Source: Halichondria panicea
Lineage: Eukaryota > Porifera > Demospongiae > Suberitida > Halichondriidae
NCBI RefSeq assembly: GCF_963675165.1
Contig: NC_087393.1
Span: 2,981,502 to 3,045,501 of the forward strand
DNA length: 64,000 nt
Direction of reading: 5' to 3'
Shown here: positions 48,251 through 57,508 of the stretch, one piece after another
How positions within the stretch are numbered: position 1 is the stretch's first letter
How the letters are laid out: the number at the start of each line of letters is the position of its first letter
Position numbers and translations under genes: made by a program
Notes under the pieces: generated by a model
Databases searched by the model: none
What the model was told of the DNA's origin: nothing
What the model saw: the letters and a program-made list of their open reading frames with translations, nothing else

Positions 48251-48333
48251 AGCGACCATAGAGAACGACAGTGTGCTAGGTACACACTTCAGTAGGCAGC
48301 ATGTGGTAATCTACAGTTAAGTGCCTTCAGGTA

Positions 48334-48884
48334 CAGTGCAACAACCAAAGAGAGTAGATTTTTTTTTTGGGTACTCATTTTTCACATTTTGTGGCATATC
48401 TTCTGAAGTAAAAGTGATATGATCTATTTGAGTGCAGGTACTGAAAGTTCAACTATTGGCGCTTCCATTGGACCACCACCTGTTACATCATATGACATCA
48501 TCACTATAAAATGGCTGTCTGAAAATGTGTACCTCCGAAAATCGCTTAGGAATAGAAGTAGCTTATTTGTTTGAGTTAAGATCTGAAATTTATTGTGTAT
48601 GTACCTGACTATATTGCTCATCTTTTGAGCTTCAACGGAAGTCTGGGCTGCTAGTAAGTTCTGAGGAATACTGAATTTTGTTGTTTTTTGGTGGCAAATA
48701 TGTTAGGAATACAACTTTCGATTTTATGCTAGTTAAGGTCTGATTTTTGAGGAGCATGTACTACAATAGCATAGAATTCATCTGTACTAACTTACAGGAG
48801 CTAGACAAGTCTCATCTTTGCTCGAGCGGCCCTTCTTGTCAAAAACGGTGATTTTGGCTGATTTTTCAGCTTTTTGTGACGTAT
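48334..48884 (+). repeat. Left terminal inverted repeat of the 8.56-kb element
   Basis: 551 bp, paired with 56,371-56,894. Starts CAGTGCAACAACC. It includes a poly-T tract at about 48,360 and ends near GTGACGTAT, about 30 bp before the transposase ATG. Confidence 0.88.
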
Positions 48885-48912
48885 CACTGTAAATTGCCAC
48901 ACCCTGTGACGC

Positions 48913-50932
48913 ATGGATGTACTTCGACCCCATAAATTTCCCGCGCTGAGCTTGCAGCTGCAGATTTCAATGTCCTTCAAAGATTTCAAAGCGATTTACA
49001 GCGATCAACTTCAACTATCAATGGATTTTCCAGGAGCTACTCAAAACGGTTCTTTTCAGAACCAAACTCAACCCAACCATCCTCTCACTCAACCAAACCA
49101 GCCTCAGCCTCTCACTCAACCAGACCAGCCTCAGCCTCAGCCTCTCACTCAACCAGACCAGCCTCAGCCTCTCACTCAACCAGACCAGCCTCAGCCTCTC
49201 ACTCAACCAGACCAGCCTCAGCCTCTCACTCAACCAAACCAGCCTCAACTAACCTGTTCTAACCAGCAACAACCTGCAGCAGTCACCTCTGTAACTGGAC
49301 CCCATAAGAGAAGGAGAGGAATAACAACAGTGTTGGCTGACAGAACCAATGGGCAGGAGAATATCCCGGAGGAACAACCAAGGCACAGCAAGAGACAGGC
49401 CCTACATATTCTGAAGGAGGCAGTTCTGAAGGAGGCAGCTGAAATCAAACAGAAGCCAAGAGGAGACAGTGCTTCTGGTGGTGGAACAAGGTGGGCCAAA
49501 GTAAAACTAGCGCCTGAGACCGAGTCAGCCTGTCAGTACCCTTAAGCAGCTGCTCAAGCACTGCCCTGATGTTTTTGAAATAGGAAGCAATTCCATAGAC
49601 AACTACTTCGAGCGCAACCAACATCAGCCCTGAGCTAAACAAGGCCACTGCACTTAAAGTTTTCAGTGTAGCTATAAATGTATGGGGAGATGGTATAGTT
49701 GATGCGTCCAAAAGGGCAGCTGATGTAAGTGGTGCTAATGCTGAAACGGTACGTAGGTGGGCAGCTCATTATTATCTGTCATTGGTTCATGTACAACCTT
49801 CTGCTATTGATGACGATGCCATTGATACTATACTAGCATCTTGCCGAGGTAAAAGTGTTAAAAAGCCGTATAGCTTGATAAAGAATGATAATTTTTGTAC
49901 TAGCGCTAGAAAATTTGTAAAAGAAAACGCATGTAGAAAAGGCATGCCTAATTTAACTGTAGAAATGTTCCGTTCGTGGATAGATAATGAACATGAATGT
50001 ATTGTAAGTAAAGAAACAGCTCGTAAATGGTTGCATGTATTGGGATTTAAACAGGTGAACCATCAAAAAGGTGTCTATTTTGATGGGCATGAAAGGGATG
50101 ACGTAGTAGCATATAGAAAACAATTTCTTGATAAATTAACTGAATTAGATCGTAGATGTATATACGGTGACTCCCATTTTACTTCCGGGAGAGTTGCCCC
50201 TTGTTGCCATCCACCATGATGAGTCCACATTTTTTGCTAATGCAGACCAAGATTATTACTAGGGTGATGATTCTATTACTATACTAAAACAAAAAAGTTT
50301 GGGGCAGTCTATAATGGTGTCCGATTTCATAGAGGAGGCAAGTGCAGATTTTTTACAGCATGATGGTGTTGAAGCATGTTTGCTACTAGAGACTCAAAGT
50401 GAGGGATACTTTGAAAGCAATAGATTTTTAATACAGGTAAATAAAGCTATTGATATATTTAACAGTAAAAACCCTGGTAAACAAGCTCTGTTTATATTTG
50501 ATAATGCTCCGTCTCATCGTAAATGTAGTGATGAATCTCTTAATGTAAAAAAAATGAATGTGGGTCCTGGTGGAAAGCAACCTGTCATGAAAGATACGGT
50601 GTTTGATGGGAAGGTTCAAAAATTGGTTAATGATAGTGGTAGTCCTAAGGGTATGAAATTAGTTTTACAGGAGAGGGGGATAGACACTTTGGGGATGAAT
50701 GCCTTAAAAATGAGGGAGGTGTCGGGAAGTCACGAAGACTTTCAAAGTATCAAAACACTTGTTGAAGAACTGGTGGAAAGCAGGTTCCACATATGTTTGT
50801 TTTTTCCAAAATTTCATTGTGAATTGAATGCCATTGAGCAATGCTGGTGTCATGCAAAGAAGTACAGTAGACAGTATGTTAATGGTTCCATAATACGACC
50901 AAGAAAAGTTGTGCCTCAGTTATTGGCAACAT
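48913..50932 (+). pseudogene. Long-spacing DDE transposase (fungal-like Tc1/mariner relative), 5' part
   Basis: Likely start 48,913. The N-terminus has a Pro/Gln repeat (PQPLTQPDQ, 27-bp DNA unit, about 49,080-49,250) and a basic GPHKRRRG patch. After frame changes near 49,540 and 49,630, the frame runs through ARKWLHVLGFKQVNHQKGVY and FDGHERDDVV (about 50,010-50,110). Catalytic residues: DES at about 50,218 (after another frameshift near 50,195), the Asp of FIFDNAPSH at 50,500, and the Glu of ELNAIE at 50,836, which gives D-x(111)-E, far longer than the D34D/E of classic Tc1/mariner. A TAG near 50,262 interrupts it. I recall basidiomycete transposases with the same KGVYFDGHER, HDEST, FDNA, GMKLVLQERG and KFHCELN.IE order. 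The coding sequence is cut at 50,932 by the nested element. Confidence 0.82.
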
Positions 50933-51200
50933 GATCAGTGTATTAAAGCGGCCATTCTAGAATGTCTGTGTTTTTTGCCAAAAAGTCAGGAAATTAGGGA
51001 GTGCTTGCATTTACCAATTTCTGGATTCTTAAATCTTTAAATTTCCATTAATGCGAGTTTCCAGAACCCAACGTTTCCTGGTATTTTGAAAACACGAGGG
51101 GGAGATATTTTAATATTACAACCCCTGGCAGTTAACTTGTAGTACTCAGTTAATGTTAAACACTCTATAATGATTATGAGCAAGTAAAATGGCTCTTAGA

Positions 51201-52674
51201 CTATAGATAAGCTTCTAGAGAGTTCGTTATTCTAATGAACTCAGCAATTGCATATGAATATGCTTGTCCATTTCCTGATACCACATTACTAAAGATGTCC
51301 CCAAAACGACAGCGAGAGAGGAAATATTGCTCCCTTTTCATAATTAGATCCTGTCGATCCTTGAGTGGATCGCAACCAAAAAGTCCAAACTCTCTTAGCT
51401 GACCACCTTGAGAACGGTATGCATCTGCAGCTTCATCAGTACCCGGTACTTCCCCATCTGGAATGGGTATAGTTTCATAACGCTGCACCTGCAAATGATT
51501 GGGTACTCCTCGACCTGTATCACATATTATAATAGCGCATGTGTCATCAATAATAATGTCATTACATTTACCTGGTATAGAATGATGATTCCAAGCTGCA
51601 ACAAACAATGATAATCCATGATAAGCAACATTGCACGTAACAAACGAAACACAAAATTTTGTAGTTTCATCACTCATGTTAATCAGATTAGTAGCTTCCA
51701 TTGATATCAAGTGTCGCTTTAGGGGGTAGTTAATACGAGAATTTACTTCAACCCAAATGCGTTCAACAGTGTGGTTCTGTAGAGAGAAAAGTTAATGCAT
51801 GTAAGCAATATCAGTACCCTTACTTCTGTTGAAGGAGATTGAACGTAAGGAAGAATATCCCGAGGGCCAACACGACAACGAAGTGCTTCTTGTACATACA
51901 AAAGAAGATAAAATTCTCTTCCATGGTCGACTCGAATTTGCTTCCAAAGACCATACGTTTTAGTAGATGACCTGATATGGAAATTATACGTGTTACTGAT
52001 GCAACTATTATTCAATGAGTTGAACAATACCTCAAAATACTGTCGTATATAGCCAAATTGTTCTTGACTGGCATTGTACAGTAAGCAATTATCTTGCCTG
52101 AATATCCATCCCTTGCAACTATGTGGGTAGCACCAAACATTGTGATCTTTTCATTTTGGTCAATATGAAGTTTATGCCCAAAGTGGAGAGCCGAGTATTG
52201 CAGTGGATTAGTACGGTCTAAGGTGTCATTCCGCCGCTGATCATATTGCAAAGGGGCCACTCTCTGTAAGGACTCTGAAACTCTTTTCTCAGATACCTTA
52301 ATACCTTTAGACTCAAGCACACCCTTTAACATTCTCCGGCCATACACATGTCCAACCTGCAAGTCATAATTAATTTAGAAATGTTTTTTGTGGTACTTAG
52401 CTAATTACGCACATGGACTGTATTCTCCGGTGCTACGGTAATATTCTTAGTATTAAGCCCTATACTACGTTTAGCTTACTTCAGTAACAGCACATTCGAC
52501 TACAGCATCTACTTGAGCAGAATCTGGTTTATGAATGCCATTTTCAGAGCAGAATCGCCGAACACTTCTTGCAGAGAAGCCTCTTATTCCTGGAAAGCGG
52601 GTCTTGAGTGTATTACTTATATCTTCGTGGGTCATACCACTTGTAACCATTTCAAACACTTCATCCACATCCAT
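51201..52674 (-). CDS. Integrase-core DDE transposase, four exons, intact
   Basis: Exons 52,674-52,480; 52,356-52,031; 51,971-51,824; 51,776-51,201, all with GT-AG introns of 47-123 bp. Lengths sum to 1,245 bp, giving 414 residues with an unbroken frame. Residues 1-65 form an HTH-like region (FSARSVRRFCSENGIHKP) and about 66-110 a second one (YGRRMLKGVLESKGIKVSEK). The rve-like core has HIDQNEK (first Asp), IRVDHGREF (second Asp) and NHTVERIWVEVNSR (Glu), with D-x(38)-E. A C-terminal domain of about 180 residues has WNHHSIPG and GRGVPNH. I recall related proteins in fish and cnidarians annotated only as integrase core domain. It should excise and insert the element in the nucleus. Confidence 0.88.
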
Positions 52675-52794
52675 CCTTCTTAGCCTCGATACACGCCTGG
52701 ATTCGAATTAGCCGCACCCTAGCCTAATAAATATTTTGCGATTGCTTTTTAAATAGATAAATCTACATGTAGATCAACATACGGTCAAAAGCAC
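52675..52794. promoter_or_regulatory. Divergent intergenic region
   Basis: Only 120 bp separate the ATG of the integrase gene (minus) from the first ATG of the RING gene (plus), or about 200 bp if the second ATG at 52,876 is used. Expression of both must be driven from here, presumably by a bidirectional promoter. No clear TATA box was identified. Confidence 0.4.
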
Positions 52795-54090
52795 ATGGCC
52801 TGGGCACAAAATTGCAAGTGTCCTCTCTATTTAGCTCTATGCTGCGCTGATACCGTGAAAGAAGGGCCTAGGAACATGAGTTCGAGTGTAAGCAACTTGT
52901 ACAACTACAGCCTGTATACCATAGAGAAAGATGGCAAAACCGTGAAGCTCAAACCATCACAGCTAACTACTCAAGTTATTGGTAAAGTGTTTGGACTGTT
53001 CCCCGATTCCATTATTTTGATTTCTGACGATGGGTTTGTGGAAACACCAGACCATGAGGGAAAGTTTCTTGATGTAGATGACCTATCAAAGTGGGTTGTG
53101 AACGGGGATTCGCTCAAGGCAGATGGTTTGCCTCAAGACCAGCAAGTAGCCTCTTTCTCTTACCAGCCTCCTTCACAAGCAACATCACAAGCAACATCAC
53201 GAAAAAGAGGACGACCGCCAAAATGGAGTCCAAAGTTCACGTCAGCCTTGCTAGGTGCAAGCTCTGCCTCAGGACAGAAGCCACCTGGAGTTCGAGCTCG
53301 AGCTGAACCGAGTGTTGATGGTGCAGGCCCTTCCACAATGTCTTCAAGTTCTAGCAGCCGTCCCGAATGGAGAAAGTATATTGAGGTGTGCAAATGGAAT
53401 GAAGCTGATAAACAATGGAAGAAAGTGAGCAATGTCCCCATCGACCTTTCTGAGGAAATTGCCAGCGTTCCAAATGTGTCGAAGATGGTTAGTGACGAGC
53501 TATTCAATGGTGAAGAATGCGTACTTATGGACATAGACTACCTGAAGATACCGAATACTTCTACTACTCGAGGTAAGAAGCTCGATGTATTCATTGTGCT
53601 GACTCTTTAATAACTTGTTAATTCAGCAGTTACTGATTATGCCATTACTAGTGCTTACTTTCTCTATCCAGGATCAAGGTTTTGGAAAACCTCCAAACGT
53701 ATTCGAGCCGTTAGAAAATCTGAAGTAAAGAAAGGAAGGGTTATTTCCTTGGACTCGAGCTCTGATAGTGATTTTGATTTTGCCCCACAGCACAGAGCAA
53801 AAAAAATGTCTCTACCATTGGCACCATCTTCCCTAGGCACTATGGATAAAACTGTATTCGAATGCCTCGTATGCAAGTCTCAGACATCATTCCCAGCTGT
53901 GGTGTCTCCCTGTTGTAATGTTATTTTGGGGTGTGAGGTGTGTGTGGCACAATGGCTGGAGGCCCAGTCAACCTGCCCACATTGTCGTGCCTCTTTGACT
54001 CTCAAGGACTGCCCAAAGTTACCCCTTGTAAGAAGCTTCCAAGAATTTCTTCGAAAGCATACGCCTTCTCCATTGTCAAGCTCTGACTAA
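52795..54090 (+). CDS. AT-hook/RING-finger protein of the nested transposon
   Basis: Exon 1 52,795-53,572, exon 2 53,672-54,090; donor GAG|GTAAG and acceptor CCAG|GA keep the frame, giving 398 residues (371 from the ATG at 52,876). An N-terminal globular region is followed by an AT-hook-like RKRGRPPKW, a Ser-rich linker, and an acidic DSSSDSDFDF patch. The C-terminal zinc finger begins CLVCKSQTSF, continues CCNVILGCEVC, and closes with CPHC. Spacing is RING-like, but Asn stands where C3HC4 has His, so it is a variant. RING domains usually act as ubiquitin E3 ligases; here it could stabilise or regulate the transposase or bind element DNA. That role is inference. Confidence 0.78.
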
Positions 54091-54159
54091 TGAACATTTA
54101 TTGGTGAACTTGTATCCCTGTTGTGTTTTCATCAAGAGTATATGTATACTCTTGTTTCA

Positions 54160-54210
54160 TGCATTTATTCTTATTCTTATTCTTATTCTTGTTATTATTA
54201 TTATTATGTG
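54160..54210. repeat. TTCTTA / TTA microsatellite
   Basis: (ATTCTT)n followed by (ATT)n, 3' of the RING gene within the nested transposon. Confidence 0.7.
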
Positions 54211-54742
54211 AACTTCACAGCCTTTCAACTGAAACGGGCTAACAATTTTGAGCACTGCGGGGGATGTGTAGATATGTAAGCAAGATTGAACCTTGCATAA
54301 TTATAAGATAGCCAAACTCTTATAGACATTGTGACAAAGTCCCAGACCTGGCTGGAAACCGTTGCATGGTCTTTTCTCTCCCTATAACTGATTACCAATT
54401 TTTTTTGCTGTTCTACCACAAACCCACCACCCTATGTTGCTATGGAAATATACACAATGGTATCAGCACATTATCTTAGAAATGTTCCAAACAGGAGATA
54501 TGACTGGTATACAATTATTCACCTATTGCACAAACTTATAACTGCCACAGGGGTTGTAATGTTAAAATTTCTCCCCCTCGTGTTTTCAAAATACCAGGAA
54601 ACGTTGAGTTCTGGAAACTCGCATTAATGGAAATTTAAAGATTTAAGAATCCAGAAATTGGTAAATGCAAGCACTCCCTAATTTCCTGACTTTTTGGCAA
54701 AAAACACAGACATTCTAGAATGGCCGCTTTAATACACTGATC

Positions 54743-54894
54743 CAACATGTCAAAAAGAATTAATACGTAAATTTTTTGATAAATGTAGGTCATATTTGAG
54801 GGGGTATAATAGCGGCTGTGATTGTAGTAATGTCGATTCATTTGTTAAGCTATATAAGTCACATCGAAGAGTTTCCATAGCGAATCTCTCTTAA
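54743..54894 (+). pseudogene. 3' end of the interrupted transposase
   Basis: Directly after the nested element and its target copy (54,743-54,748), the frame that was open at 50,932 resumes in phase. It reads KELIRKFFDKCRSYL and then KLYKSHRRVSIANLS to a TAA at 54,892-54,894. The YKSHRRV ending fits the C-terminus of this transposase family. The last nine or so codons coincide with the first unit of the downstream 40-bp minisatellite. The phase continuity proves the nested copy landed in an exon. Confidence 0.82.
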
Positions 54895-55212
54895 TACCAT
54901 CTTAATTTAGTAACGTTTAACATAATTAAATTTTGGAAGAGTTTTCACTGCGAATCTCTCTAATACCATCTTATGGAAGAGTTTCCACTGCGAATCTCTC
55001 TAATACCATCGTATGGAAGAGTTTCCACTGCGAATCTCTCTAATACCATCTTATGGAAGAGTTTCCACTGCGAATCTCTCTAATACCATCGTATGGAAGA
55101 GTTTCCACTGCGAATCTCTCTAATACCATCTTATGGAAGAGTTTCCACTGTGAATCTCTCCAATACCATCGTATGGAAGAGTTTCCACTGCGAATCTCTC
55201 TAATACCATCTT
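54867..55212. repeat. 40-bp minisatellite
   Basis: Seven near-identical 40-bp units at 54,932-55,211 and one separated unit at 54,867-54,902. The unit contains GGAAGAGTTTCCACTGCGAA and TCTCTCTAATACCATC. Successive units alternate T or G at one position (TTATGG/GTATGG), giving an 80-bp higher-order period. The first unit overlaps the end of the transposase coding sequence. Confidence 0.9.
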
Positions 55213-55665
55213 CGTAACACACTTTTAACATGATATCCTTGCGCCATCACCATATTATCATAAATTATTTATGAAAGCACAATCATTTTAACTTTGTCAT
55301 TCACAATCATGTACTTTTACTGCTATACATGTATGTATGTTTGATTTGTGCAATGTGTGTCTCAGGTGAAACGTCCCAGCTGCGGCTAGAGGGACTGTGA
55401 GTTAATAACTTGAACACACTGGTTTTTCTAAAAACCACCACCTGGCAAAAGAGTTCACTGGAAACGAGTCTATATTTTTGTGTGTATGTTAGTGTATGGT
55501 GTATGTTAGTGTATGTTAGTGTGCAATAATAATAGTGTAATTGCATGTACACATGTACTTAGGTAAGCAACACCTTTGAATTATGATAACAGTAGTACTG
55601 TGTGTATAGTACAAGGCAACTCATTTGGAAACTTGGTGGCTTTTAAAAAAGCCGGGGTAGCGGAT
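55213..55665. other. Noncoding part of the 8.56-kb element
   Basis: No gene seen; a short TGTATGTTAG repeat lies near 55,480-55,520. Confidence 0.3.
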
Positions 55666-56262
55666 TTAGGACCTCCGCTCTAGTCTCCTGTCTCCAAGGC
55701 CATCGTCGTTCCCCAAGATGAGGCCGTCGAGGTCACTGGCAGCTCCCACCAAGGCATCTCGGACCTTAAACTCCTTACTGAGTGGGCCAACGATGGAGAC
55801 GGATACTGTGATAGCCCTGTACCGCCAACTCCGACTAGTAGAACTAGTGGAGTGTTCGTCGAATAGCACCATCCTGACAAAGAATAGATGGAATGATGTT
55901 GTGCTGTAGTATTTACACTCAATACATATAAATACATATAATATTATAATGTAACCACTTGGTGCATTGTACGTTGAACATCGCGATCTATTTTATAGAA
56001 GCTCACCCAGCTGCAGAGAAAGGTCCGAGAAGCAGTGGAGAGAGCCACCTAGCAGCCTCAGCAGCAACATGCCCGAGAACGACTCTGGAACCACTGAAAC
56101 CACTGATTCGGGTGAAACACAGCACAGCATTACGATCTTGCTGGTTCGTTGGTTCAGGCTCAAAGAGGACATCAGCATTGCCTAGCCTTCGACCTTGTTG
56201 CTCATAGAACTCACTCCCTTCACCTCGCAAGTGAAAAACGCTACATCACAAATATCCTCCAT
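55666..56262 (-). pseudogene. HIRAN-like domain gene carried by the 8.56-kb element
   Basis: Probable exon 1 56,262-56,007 and exon 2 55,873-55,666, with donor CTGG|GTGAGC and acceptor TCAG|GA in matching phase. Exon 1 starts MEDICDVAFFTCEVKGVS, shifts frame once near 56,210, then reads LFEPEPTNQQDRNAVLCF and VVLGHVAAEAARWLSPLL. This is the HIRAN pattern (EP.N..D.NAV ... GH..RE.A..LSPLL) known from HLTF/Rad5-type DNA-binding modules. Exon 2 adds AITVSVSIVGPLSKEF and ends at a stop at 55,666. It lies just inside the right TIR, antisense to the transposase. It may be a captured host gene or an element-encoded accessory protein. The frameshift makes this copy a pseudogene unless sequencing is wrong. 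Confidence 0.5.
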
Positions 56263-56370
56263 CGCTATCTTAATGCAGCTGTATAATTTAGCGGGCTATA
56301 TCACGTGAACCTGTGGAGGCAGCAATAATGACAGAAAGATCGTGATGTCAGAAGTTGGAATAAACATTTC

Positions 56371-56894
56371 ATACGTCACAAAAAAGCCAAAAAAGCAGGA
56401 AAATCAGCCAAAATCACCGTTTTTGACAAGAAGGGCCGCTCGAGCAAAGATGAGACTTGTGCTATTGTAGTACATGCTCCTCAAAAATCAGACCTTAACT
56501 AGCATAAAATCGAAAGTTGTATTCCTAACATATTTGGCACCAAAAAACAACAAAATTCAGCATTTCTCAGAACTTACTAGCAGCCCAGACTTCCGTTGAA
56601 GCTCAAAATATGAGCAATATAGTCAGGTACATACACAATAAATTTCAGATCTTAACTCAAACAAATAAGCTACTTCTATTCCTAAGCGATTTTCGGAGGT
56701 ACACATTTTCAGACAGCCATTTTATAGTGATGATGTCATATGATGTAACAGGTGGTGGTCCAATGGAAGCGCCAATAATTGAACTTTCAGTACCTGCACT
56801 CAAATAGATCATATCACTTTTACTTCAGAAGATATGCCACAAAATGTGAAAAAAAAAAGAAAAAAAAAATCTACTCTCTTTGGTTGTTGCACTG
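56371..56894 (-). repeat. Right terminal inverted repeat of the 8.56-kb element
   Basis: 524 bp inverse of 48,334-48,884 with scattered substitutions and without the ~33-bp segment. Ends GGTTGTTGCACTG then TA. Confidence 0.88.
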
Positions 56895-57508
56895 TAAACT
56901 CAGGTAAACACATTGTTATGTTGTATCATAGAAAGGAATGTATCATAGAAAGGAAAAACCTTTTTGTAGGAATTAAGACATTGCTGTCTCTGGCTGTCTC
57001 TGGTGCCTGACGACACAAGACTGTCTCCCAATCCACTCTCTCAGAACGACACAGAGTATTTGCAGTGACTACACCAGATTTGTGTCGAATGGTGCTCACC
57101 TAAAAAAAGCCAAGATGTTCAACAATGCCCATAGACCAGGTACAATAATTATATTATACTTACAGTAGTAGAGCACTTAGCATCTTCTTTTGTCTCTTTA
57201 CCTTATTGGAAAATGAGTGTCACCAGCTTGATCACCAGCTTGATCTTAGGGTCAGGGACAGTGCTCTTGAGGGTGGAGCCAGCTATGCACATCAGCCAGA
57301 GTGAAACAACTCAAACTTGAAACAACTCAAACTTGAACTAGATACGTGAGTAATTACGGTAATACGGTAATTACCGTAATACAAACTTAATTATAAACGA
57401 TACATGACCAGGCTCAACGAGAAATCGGACCACCTTGTTGCCGTTTTACTAACGATCCCCAATTGTTGGATCTAATAAGGCTTCTAAACTTGTAAGCTAT
57501 ATGACATG
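56895..57508. other. Spacer between two mobile elements
   Basis: No gene. Contains a small palindrome around TACGGTAATTACCGTA at 57,363-57,378 and a few duplications (GAAACAACTCAAACTT twice near 57,302-57,336). The target copy ACATG of the Ty3 element is at 57,504-57,508. Confidence 0.4.

Follow-up and report, generated by a model that had tools for sequence, protein, structure and literature searches.

A young GATC-ended transposon with a probable RING ubiquitin-ligase partner gene, nested in an older Tc1/mariner-like element of the sponge Halichondria panicea

We have analysed a 64,000-nucleotide window of the Halichondria panicea genome (RefSeq assembly GCF_963675165.1, contig NC_087393.1, positions 2,981,502 to 3,045,501 of the forward strand), in which one transposon is inserted into the transposase sequence of another; coordinates given without a contig are those of the window. 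The nested transposon, which has no strand of its own, occupies 50933-54742 (3,810 bp), has the ends GATCAGTG..CACTGATC and carries two divergently oriented genes, one for a transposase and one for a protein with a RING-type zinc finger. It lies between perfect copies of the target sequence CAACAT at 50927-50932 and 54743-54748 (also without strand), both recognised by comparison of the flanks and the left one also from the empty site in a paralogue, and on this point the original prediction, made from the sequence without database searches, was correct. Self-comparison delimits gap-free terminal inverted repeats of 195 bp at 50933-51127 (plus strand) and 54548-54742 (minus strand), which are 98% alike and extend to ∼202 bp with a 2-nt gap. 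The predicted near-identity of the repeats stands but their predicted length of ∼208 bp does not, as that figure corresponds to 50927-51134 and so takes in the 6 bp of the target copy as well.

The surrounding element is 8,561 bp long (48334-56894, plus strand) and has inverted repeats of ∼0.5 kb with TA flush at both ends (48332-48333 and 56895-56896), the pattern of a TA target duplication. Its transposase matches the Pfam family DDE_3 with E 8.9e-5 and 22.8 bits, below the cut-off of 28.6, and it is on account of this match, weak as it is, that the element is termed Tc1/mariner-like. TA at both ends and the DDE_3-like domain, with its score below the cut-off, are what it shares with Tc1/mariner (IS630-like) elements, from which it differs in its ∼0.5-kb inverted repeats, an additional proline/glutamine-rich frame and its decayed state. 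Comparison of open reading frames distinguishes three plus-strand parts of the outer transposase: one preceding a frame change of the gene itself (49782-50219), a DDE_3-like part, also identified with Pfam, truncated at the insertion junction (50299-50934), and a C-terminal part beyond the insertion (54749-54894), also recognised from paralogues. As predicted, the host frame resumes after one target copy and runs to a C-terminus, with a stop at 54892-54894. The coding sequence of the 8,561-bp element is indeed interrupted, but its frame is otherwise not intact: there is a frame change before the stop at 50217-50219, and the frame cut by the insertion has a TAG at 50260-50262, lesions which either pre-date or post-date that event. 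Because the outer gene has this frame change and stop of its own, no working gene was demonstrably hit. The description of the insertion as phase-preserving was not upheld: the junction codon forms a TGA stop (50932-50934) in the outer frame, in addition to the two further lesions, and since the frame is restored whenever an insertion of whatever length is excised along with one of its target copies, phase preservation is not a real property. The nesting is thus real but ordinary, nested transposons being commonplace.

The genome searched consists of 131 Mb in 39 contigs of a single assembly. Ten matches to the outer transposase DNA were found, namely the window itself, five that continue across the insertion site and four that end before it, and all five that span the site are uninterrupted. 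One paralogue on contig C2 (locus L041) contains exactly the predicted empty site, GGCAACATGTC, and on C1 the uninterrupted form GGCCACTTGTC, with two letters changed, occurs at four places, two in each of a pair of similar loci; the empty site that the prediction had expected in other copies of the outer element is accordingly present. The outer-family element with the exact empty site has a further copy of the nested element ∼270 bp away (L012/L041, C2:5733671-5741441). Within the outer element, an open frame at 48913-49545 encodes tandem proline/glutamine-rich repeats, for which a Pfam search up to E 1 gave nothing, and a 40-bp sequence is repeated seven times in tandem at 54934-55212, shortly downstream of the C-terminal end of the outer transposase.

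The nested transposase is encoded on the minus strand by five predicted exons, the borders of which, like those of the second gene, were predicted from splice-like sequence and alignment with relatives in the same genome (L046, L047 and L048). Exon 1 (52480-52674, start codon at 52674) is supported by similarity to all three relatives, exon 2 (52031-52356) contains the first catalytic Asp, D131, exon 3 (51824-51971) the second, D189, and exon 4 (51572-51776) the catalytic Glu, E228; a predicted 57-nt intron (51515-51571) precedes exon 5, which includes the stop codon (51201-51514). A four-exon model encoding 414 aa was replaced by this five-exon, 395-aa model because the 19 codons of the last intron, a stretch with splice-like borders, are missing from L046 and L047. 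The 395-aa product matches Pfam rva_4 with E 5e-16 and 59.4 bits (cut-off 26), as expected of an integrase-like DDE core, and its catalytic residues, spaced as DD38E, align with the D, D and E of L046 and of a TA..TA-ended family described below. Searches for an HHCC domain before the core, and of sequences in the Protein Data Bank (PDB), used the 414-aa form: the former, a weak search, gave no integrase zinc-binding match among two Pfam families up to E 1, and the latter returned one chain at a meaningless E of 0.27. The best 50 of 408 matches in a fold search with the L046 transposase core are integrases, the matches being weak, with a best E of 0.037 and none at 0.001.

The second gene starts ∼200 bp from the transposase gene and is predicted to encode 371 aa in two plus-strand exons. 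Exon 1 (52876-53572, with an earlier in-frame ATG at 52795) contains conserved N-terminal and middle regions and a weak AT-hook-like stretch (about 53200-53235, below the Pfam cut-off), and exon 2 (53672-54090) contains the RING-type zinc finger (about 53860-53988) and the stop. The C-terminal 113 aa match zf-RING_2 with 28.0 bits against a cut-off of 27.3, a CC pair is kept in all four aligned sequences, and of the six solved chains that match with E ≤ 0.01, five belong to RING proteins (led by RNF126, 1.3e-4, and TRIM37, 2.7e-4) and one to MAK16. N-terminal and middle pieces of the protein matched no Pfam family up to E 10, and the AlphaFold model of exon 1 is poor (pLDDT 58). The protein is most likely an E3 ubiquitin ligase.

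Eight copies of the nested-element interior are present in the genome, seven of them with both ends, and each of the seven is flanked by its own identical 6-mer (CAACAT, ATTCCT, AATATT, TAGCTG, CAGGGG, CTCTGC and TGCACA). For the six two-ended copies elsewhere in the genome, comparison of the flanks at E 1e-10 gave no similarity between copies save for 55 bp between C5 and C2, and this, together with the separate 6-mers, indicates that the insertion is not a chance arrangement. Within the aligned part, the C5, C9, C2 and C1 copies do not differ from each other, the window copy has a single private base relative to the majority sequence, located in intron 2, the C15 copy has one base change and a 5-bp deletion, and the C12 copy has two base changes, an 18-bp deletion and two insertions, one of 8 bp and one of 4 bp. 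Five of the seven two-ended copies have both genes open, the exceptions being C15, in which the RING gene has a frame change, and C12, in which the transposase is broken and the 18-bp deletion falls in the RING gene. The original prediction was right that the outer element is the older and that the nested one is young, its copies being nearly identical; both genes are also open in the window copy, as claimed, but only once the predicted introns are allowed for. Dating of the insertion from divergence of its inverted repeats was rejected: the three differences between left and right repeats in the gap-free part are invariant among the seven two-ended copies, so that near-identity of the repeats is no insertion clock, and identity from copy to copy is the better one. 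The eighth copy (C6) has lost its left 239 bp and is itself interrupted by an insertion of 939 bp (L040, 5238-6176), which has short inverted ends of CTTTCC type and a 6-bp repeat of its own, ATAACT. The TAGCTG-flanked copy, on C9 (L011), has five extra bases at its right end, TGATC, which duplicate the last five of the element and separate it from the target duplication. The C12 copy (L014) resides in a local repeat, ∼120 bp of its left flank recurring at 90% identity in its right flank.

More distant relatives in the same genome possess the same kinds of end and gene. L046 (C10) shares the divergent gene pair and the GATCAGTG ends and is flanked by a 6-bp repeat (CTTCAA); its transposase is 44% identical to that of the window element (residues 66-410), and the first part of its RING protein 33%. 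L047 (C9) contains both genes, with the transposase broken up over different frames; a pair of ends was looked for there and not found. L048 (C16) contains the RING gene with GATCAGTG at its left end only, and only the first transposase exon was detected within the 7 kb read. Two non-autonomous elements have the same ends, L053 with TTTTAG repeats and L054 without a 6-bp repeat. In neither did the search for a transposase give anything better than E 2, and each retains a RING-gene trace of 16-18 residues (E 0.004 and 0.024). GATCAGTG..CACTGATC ends are therefore found in the seven two-ended copies, L046, L053 and L054, with the left end also in L048, and a 6-bp duplication accompanies nine of these ten two-ended insertions, all but L054. 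A family of ∼1.6-2.0-kb elements with GATCAGTGGACC ends was observed at C12:879243-880872 and C4:980110-981869, with similar sequences on C4, C6, C12 and C14; no transposase is present in the two copies read and the family is apparently non-autonomous. Viral contigs were also scanned with a pattern, and none of the five stretches that matched it encodes a relative.

A TA..TA-ended rva_4 family in the same genome (L049-L052; C7:6696291-6702308 and C7:6744314-6749600) served as a positive control, both copies having TATGAGG..CCTCATA ends and 6-bp repeats (CTGGTA and AAGTGT). Its transposase is an uninterrupted 388-aa frame (rva_4 E 7.6e-79, DD34E), ∼23% identical to that of the window, and it is accompanied by a HECT gene in pieces, one above the Pfam cut-off (E 9e-6) and one below (0.0025). 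This family therefore resembles the nested element in its rva_4 transposase, 6-bp duplications and second gene with a ubiquitin-ligase domain, and differs in its TATGAGG ends, single-frame transposase, DD34E rather than DD38E spacing, HECT rather than RING domain and tail-to-tail genes. A second strong rva_4 family (L055, C1; E 1.7e-83) has a HECT piece on the opposite strand (E 2.1e-9). Genome-wide, with the 32 rows of the window family excluded, merging gave 25 HECT places and 64 rva_4 places. Ten of the former have one of the latter within 8 kb, against a chance expectation of 0.19; the other 15 do not, and seven of the ten near ones belong to one near-identical family.

Direct observation of the structure of the element, its copies and their target duplications, the empty site, the matches to known domains and the recurrence of the gene pair in relatives makes it quite probable that a young cut-and-paste DNA transposon, likely autonomous and of a divergent lineage resembling IS3EU/GingerRoot, landed here in an older Tc1/mariner-like element, bringing with it a RING gene as its putative ubiquitin-ligase partner. 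That the junctions are merely an assembly join is scarcely credible: the evidence does come from one assembly, but the 6-bp duplication is perfect, the empty site is exact in a paralogue and the same ends recur in six further two-ended copies elsewhere in the genome. Several observations weigh against the proposed identity of the element. It ends in GATC..GATC rather than in the TA..TA or TG..CA of IS3EU and GingerRoot as passages of PMC10045372 describe them; the AlphaFold model of the L046 transposase core is poor (pLDDT 58); zf-RING_2 scores 25.2 bits on the whole RING protein, below the cut-off of 27.3; and where a zinc-binding His would be expected, the window copy has Asn, L047 and L048 have Arg, and L046 has His. 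The AT-hook was rejected as a shared feature, as it has no Pfam match in the L046 piece and was unseen in the L047 and L048 alignments. The interpretation as a whole is drawn from sequence. Possible, though we doubt it, is that the element is an ordinary IS3EU member with drifted end letters and no lineage of its own, as its 6-bp duplications and rva_4 domain would allow and as the variable ends of GingerRoot, which is grouped with IS3EU in the pertinent part of PMC10045372, might suggest. However, the TA..TA rva_4 family of the same genome scores far more strongly (7.6e-79 versus 5e-16) at only ∼23% transposase identity, and the GATCAGTG ends are common to a relative at 44% transposase identity, L046, and to two non-autonomous copies, which argues that they are not the product of drift in one family.

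Another possibility is that the RING gene was captured from the host and is carried as a passenger, playing no part in transposition. Other RING frames of the genome, nine of ten of them on C6, are 32-43% identical over about the finger, and captured genes are described in fungal IS3EU elements in the section of PMC12730594 concerned. Against capture, the divergent arrangement recurs in L046 and L047 and the gene lies beside a transposase remnant in L048, two regions outside the finger are conserved in the relatives, and coding sites of the gene have changed far less than silent ones, with pN 0.257 and pS 0.808 between L046 and L048 (307 codons) and pN 0.425-0.448 and pS 0.787-0.830 between the window and the three relatives, proportions given in place of dN/dS because synonymous sites are saturated and counted over the alignable parts alone, a further restriction on the argument. 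The transposase gives comparable values (pN 0.405 and 0.439, pS 0.767 and 0.781, for the window against L046 and L047, respectively; pN 0.367, pS 0.844 for L046 against L047), so that the two genes look about equally constrained, and we regard a passenger origin as unlikely. A RING gene belonging to the element is thus the explanation we prefer, and the chances that its product is a ubiquitin ligase needed for transposition seem roughly even.

The anatomy of the element and known DDE transposase chemistry suggest how excision and joining might proceed. The integrase-like transposase would bind the ∼200-bp inverted repeats and cut at the GATC ends, the 3' ends would be joined across 6 bp of target and repair would produce the 6-bp duplication; here the insertion landed in the transposase, now decayed, of the older Tc1/mariner-like element. 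The RING protein may ubiquitylate the transposase itself, or host chromatin or repair factors, both ligase activity and target being conjectural, and we infer that the element may be active at present. A bolder proposal, tentative and on balance improbable, is that GATC-ended elements form a deep separate lineage, perhaps a superfamily, which abandoned the terminal A and depends on a self-encoded ubiquitin ligase, ligase pairing having arisen at least twice among rva_4 transposons. A terminal A (CA-3' or TA-3') is otherwise usual in the integrase-type enzyme group, and the GATC termini would probe how strictly such enzymes require A at the joined 3' end. If the proposal is true, the RING (GATC) and HECT (TA..TA) pairings would be of independent origin and ubiquitylation would be a general need of rva_4 elements. 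If transposition does require the ligase, this young family, whose copies are almost identical and seem intact and whose empty and filled sites are known, would allow the part played by ubiquitin in DNA transposition to be tested directly.

Interest in this locus resides in the family of the nested element and its second gene, neither of which the original prediction had identified, rather than in the nesting. According to the portion of PMC10045372 that treats these groups, complete IS3EU elements always have TA..TA ends and usually 6-bp duplications, GingerRoot has mostly TA..TA and occasionally TG..CA, and Ginger1 and Ginger2 have 4-5-bp target duplications, in contrast to the 6 bp found here. 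The nested element resembles the IS3EU and GingerRoot of that account in its 6-bp duplications and integrase-like DDE transposase, an HHCC domain not being found, and differs in its predicted multi-exon transposase and RING partner gene. Since it appears to work in an IS3EU-like manner but departs in its terminal dinucleotides, we file it as an IS3EU-like variant lineage. Fungal IS3EU elements, as covered in part of PMC12730594, have oppositely oriented transposase and alpha-kinase genes with TET/JBP between them; 6-bp duplications and a further gene in opposite orientation to the transposase are common to both systems, whereas the partner genes are others and the ends in rust families are TAYGG..CCRTA. 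Among titles and the openings of abstracts, in a search that left most subscription journals and Repbase outside, no pairing of RING, HECT or ubiquitin with IS3EU or DNA transposons was reported; PMC4255032, followed as a lead, was set aside, its relevant text concerning retroviral integrases. Deubiquitinase domains are noted in Helitrons in an extract of PMC9741609. In the sponge genome, integrase-type transposons of one lineage carry a RING gene and those of another a HECT gene, each ubiquitin-ligase-like, and the known RING domain of RAG1 offers the comparison. As of 2015, the passage on this subject in PMC4411706 knew of no transposable elements encoding RING fingers beyond RAG1 kin and Chapaev; there, as here, a RING finger is coupled to a DDE transposase, and the RAG1 RING is a ubiquitin ligase, but in RAG1 and Chapaev the RING forms part of the transposase itself, which is of another superfamily, whereas in the nested element it is encoded by a separate gene.

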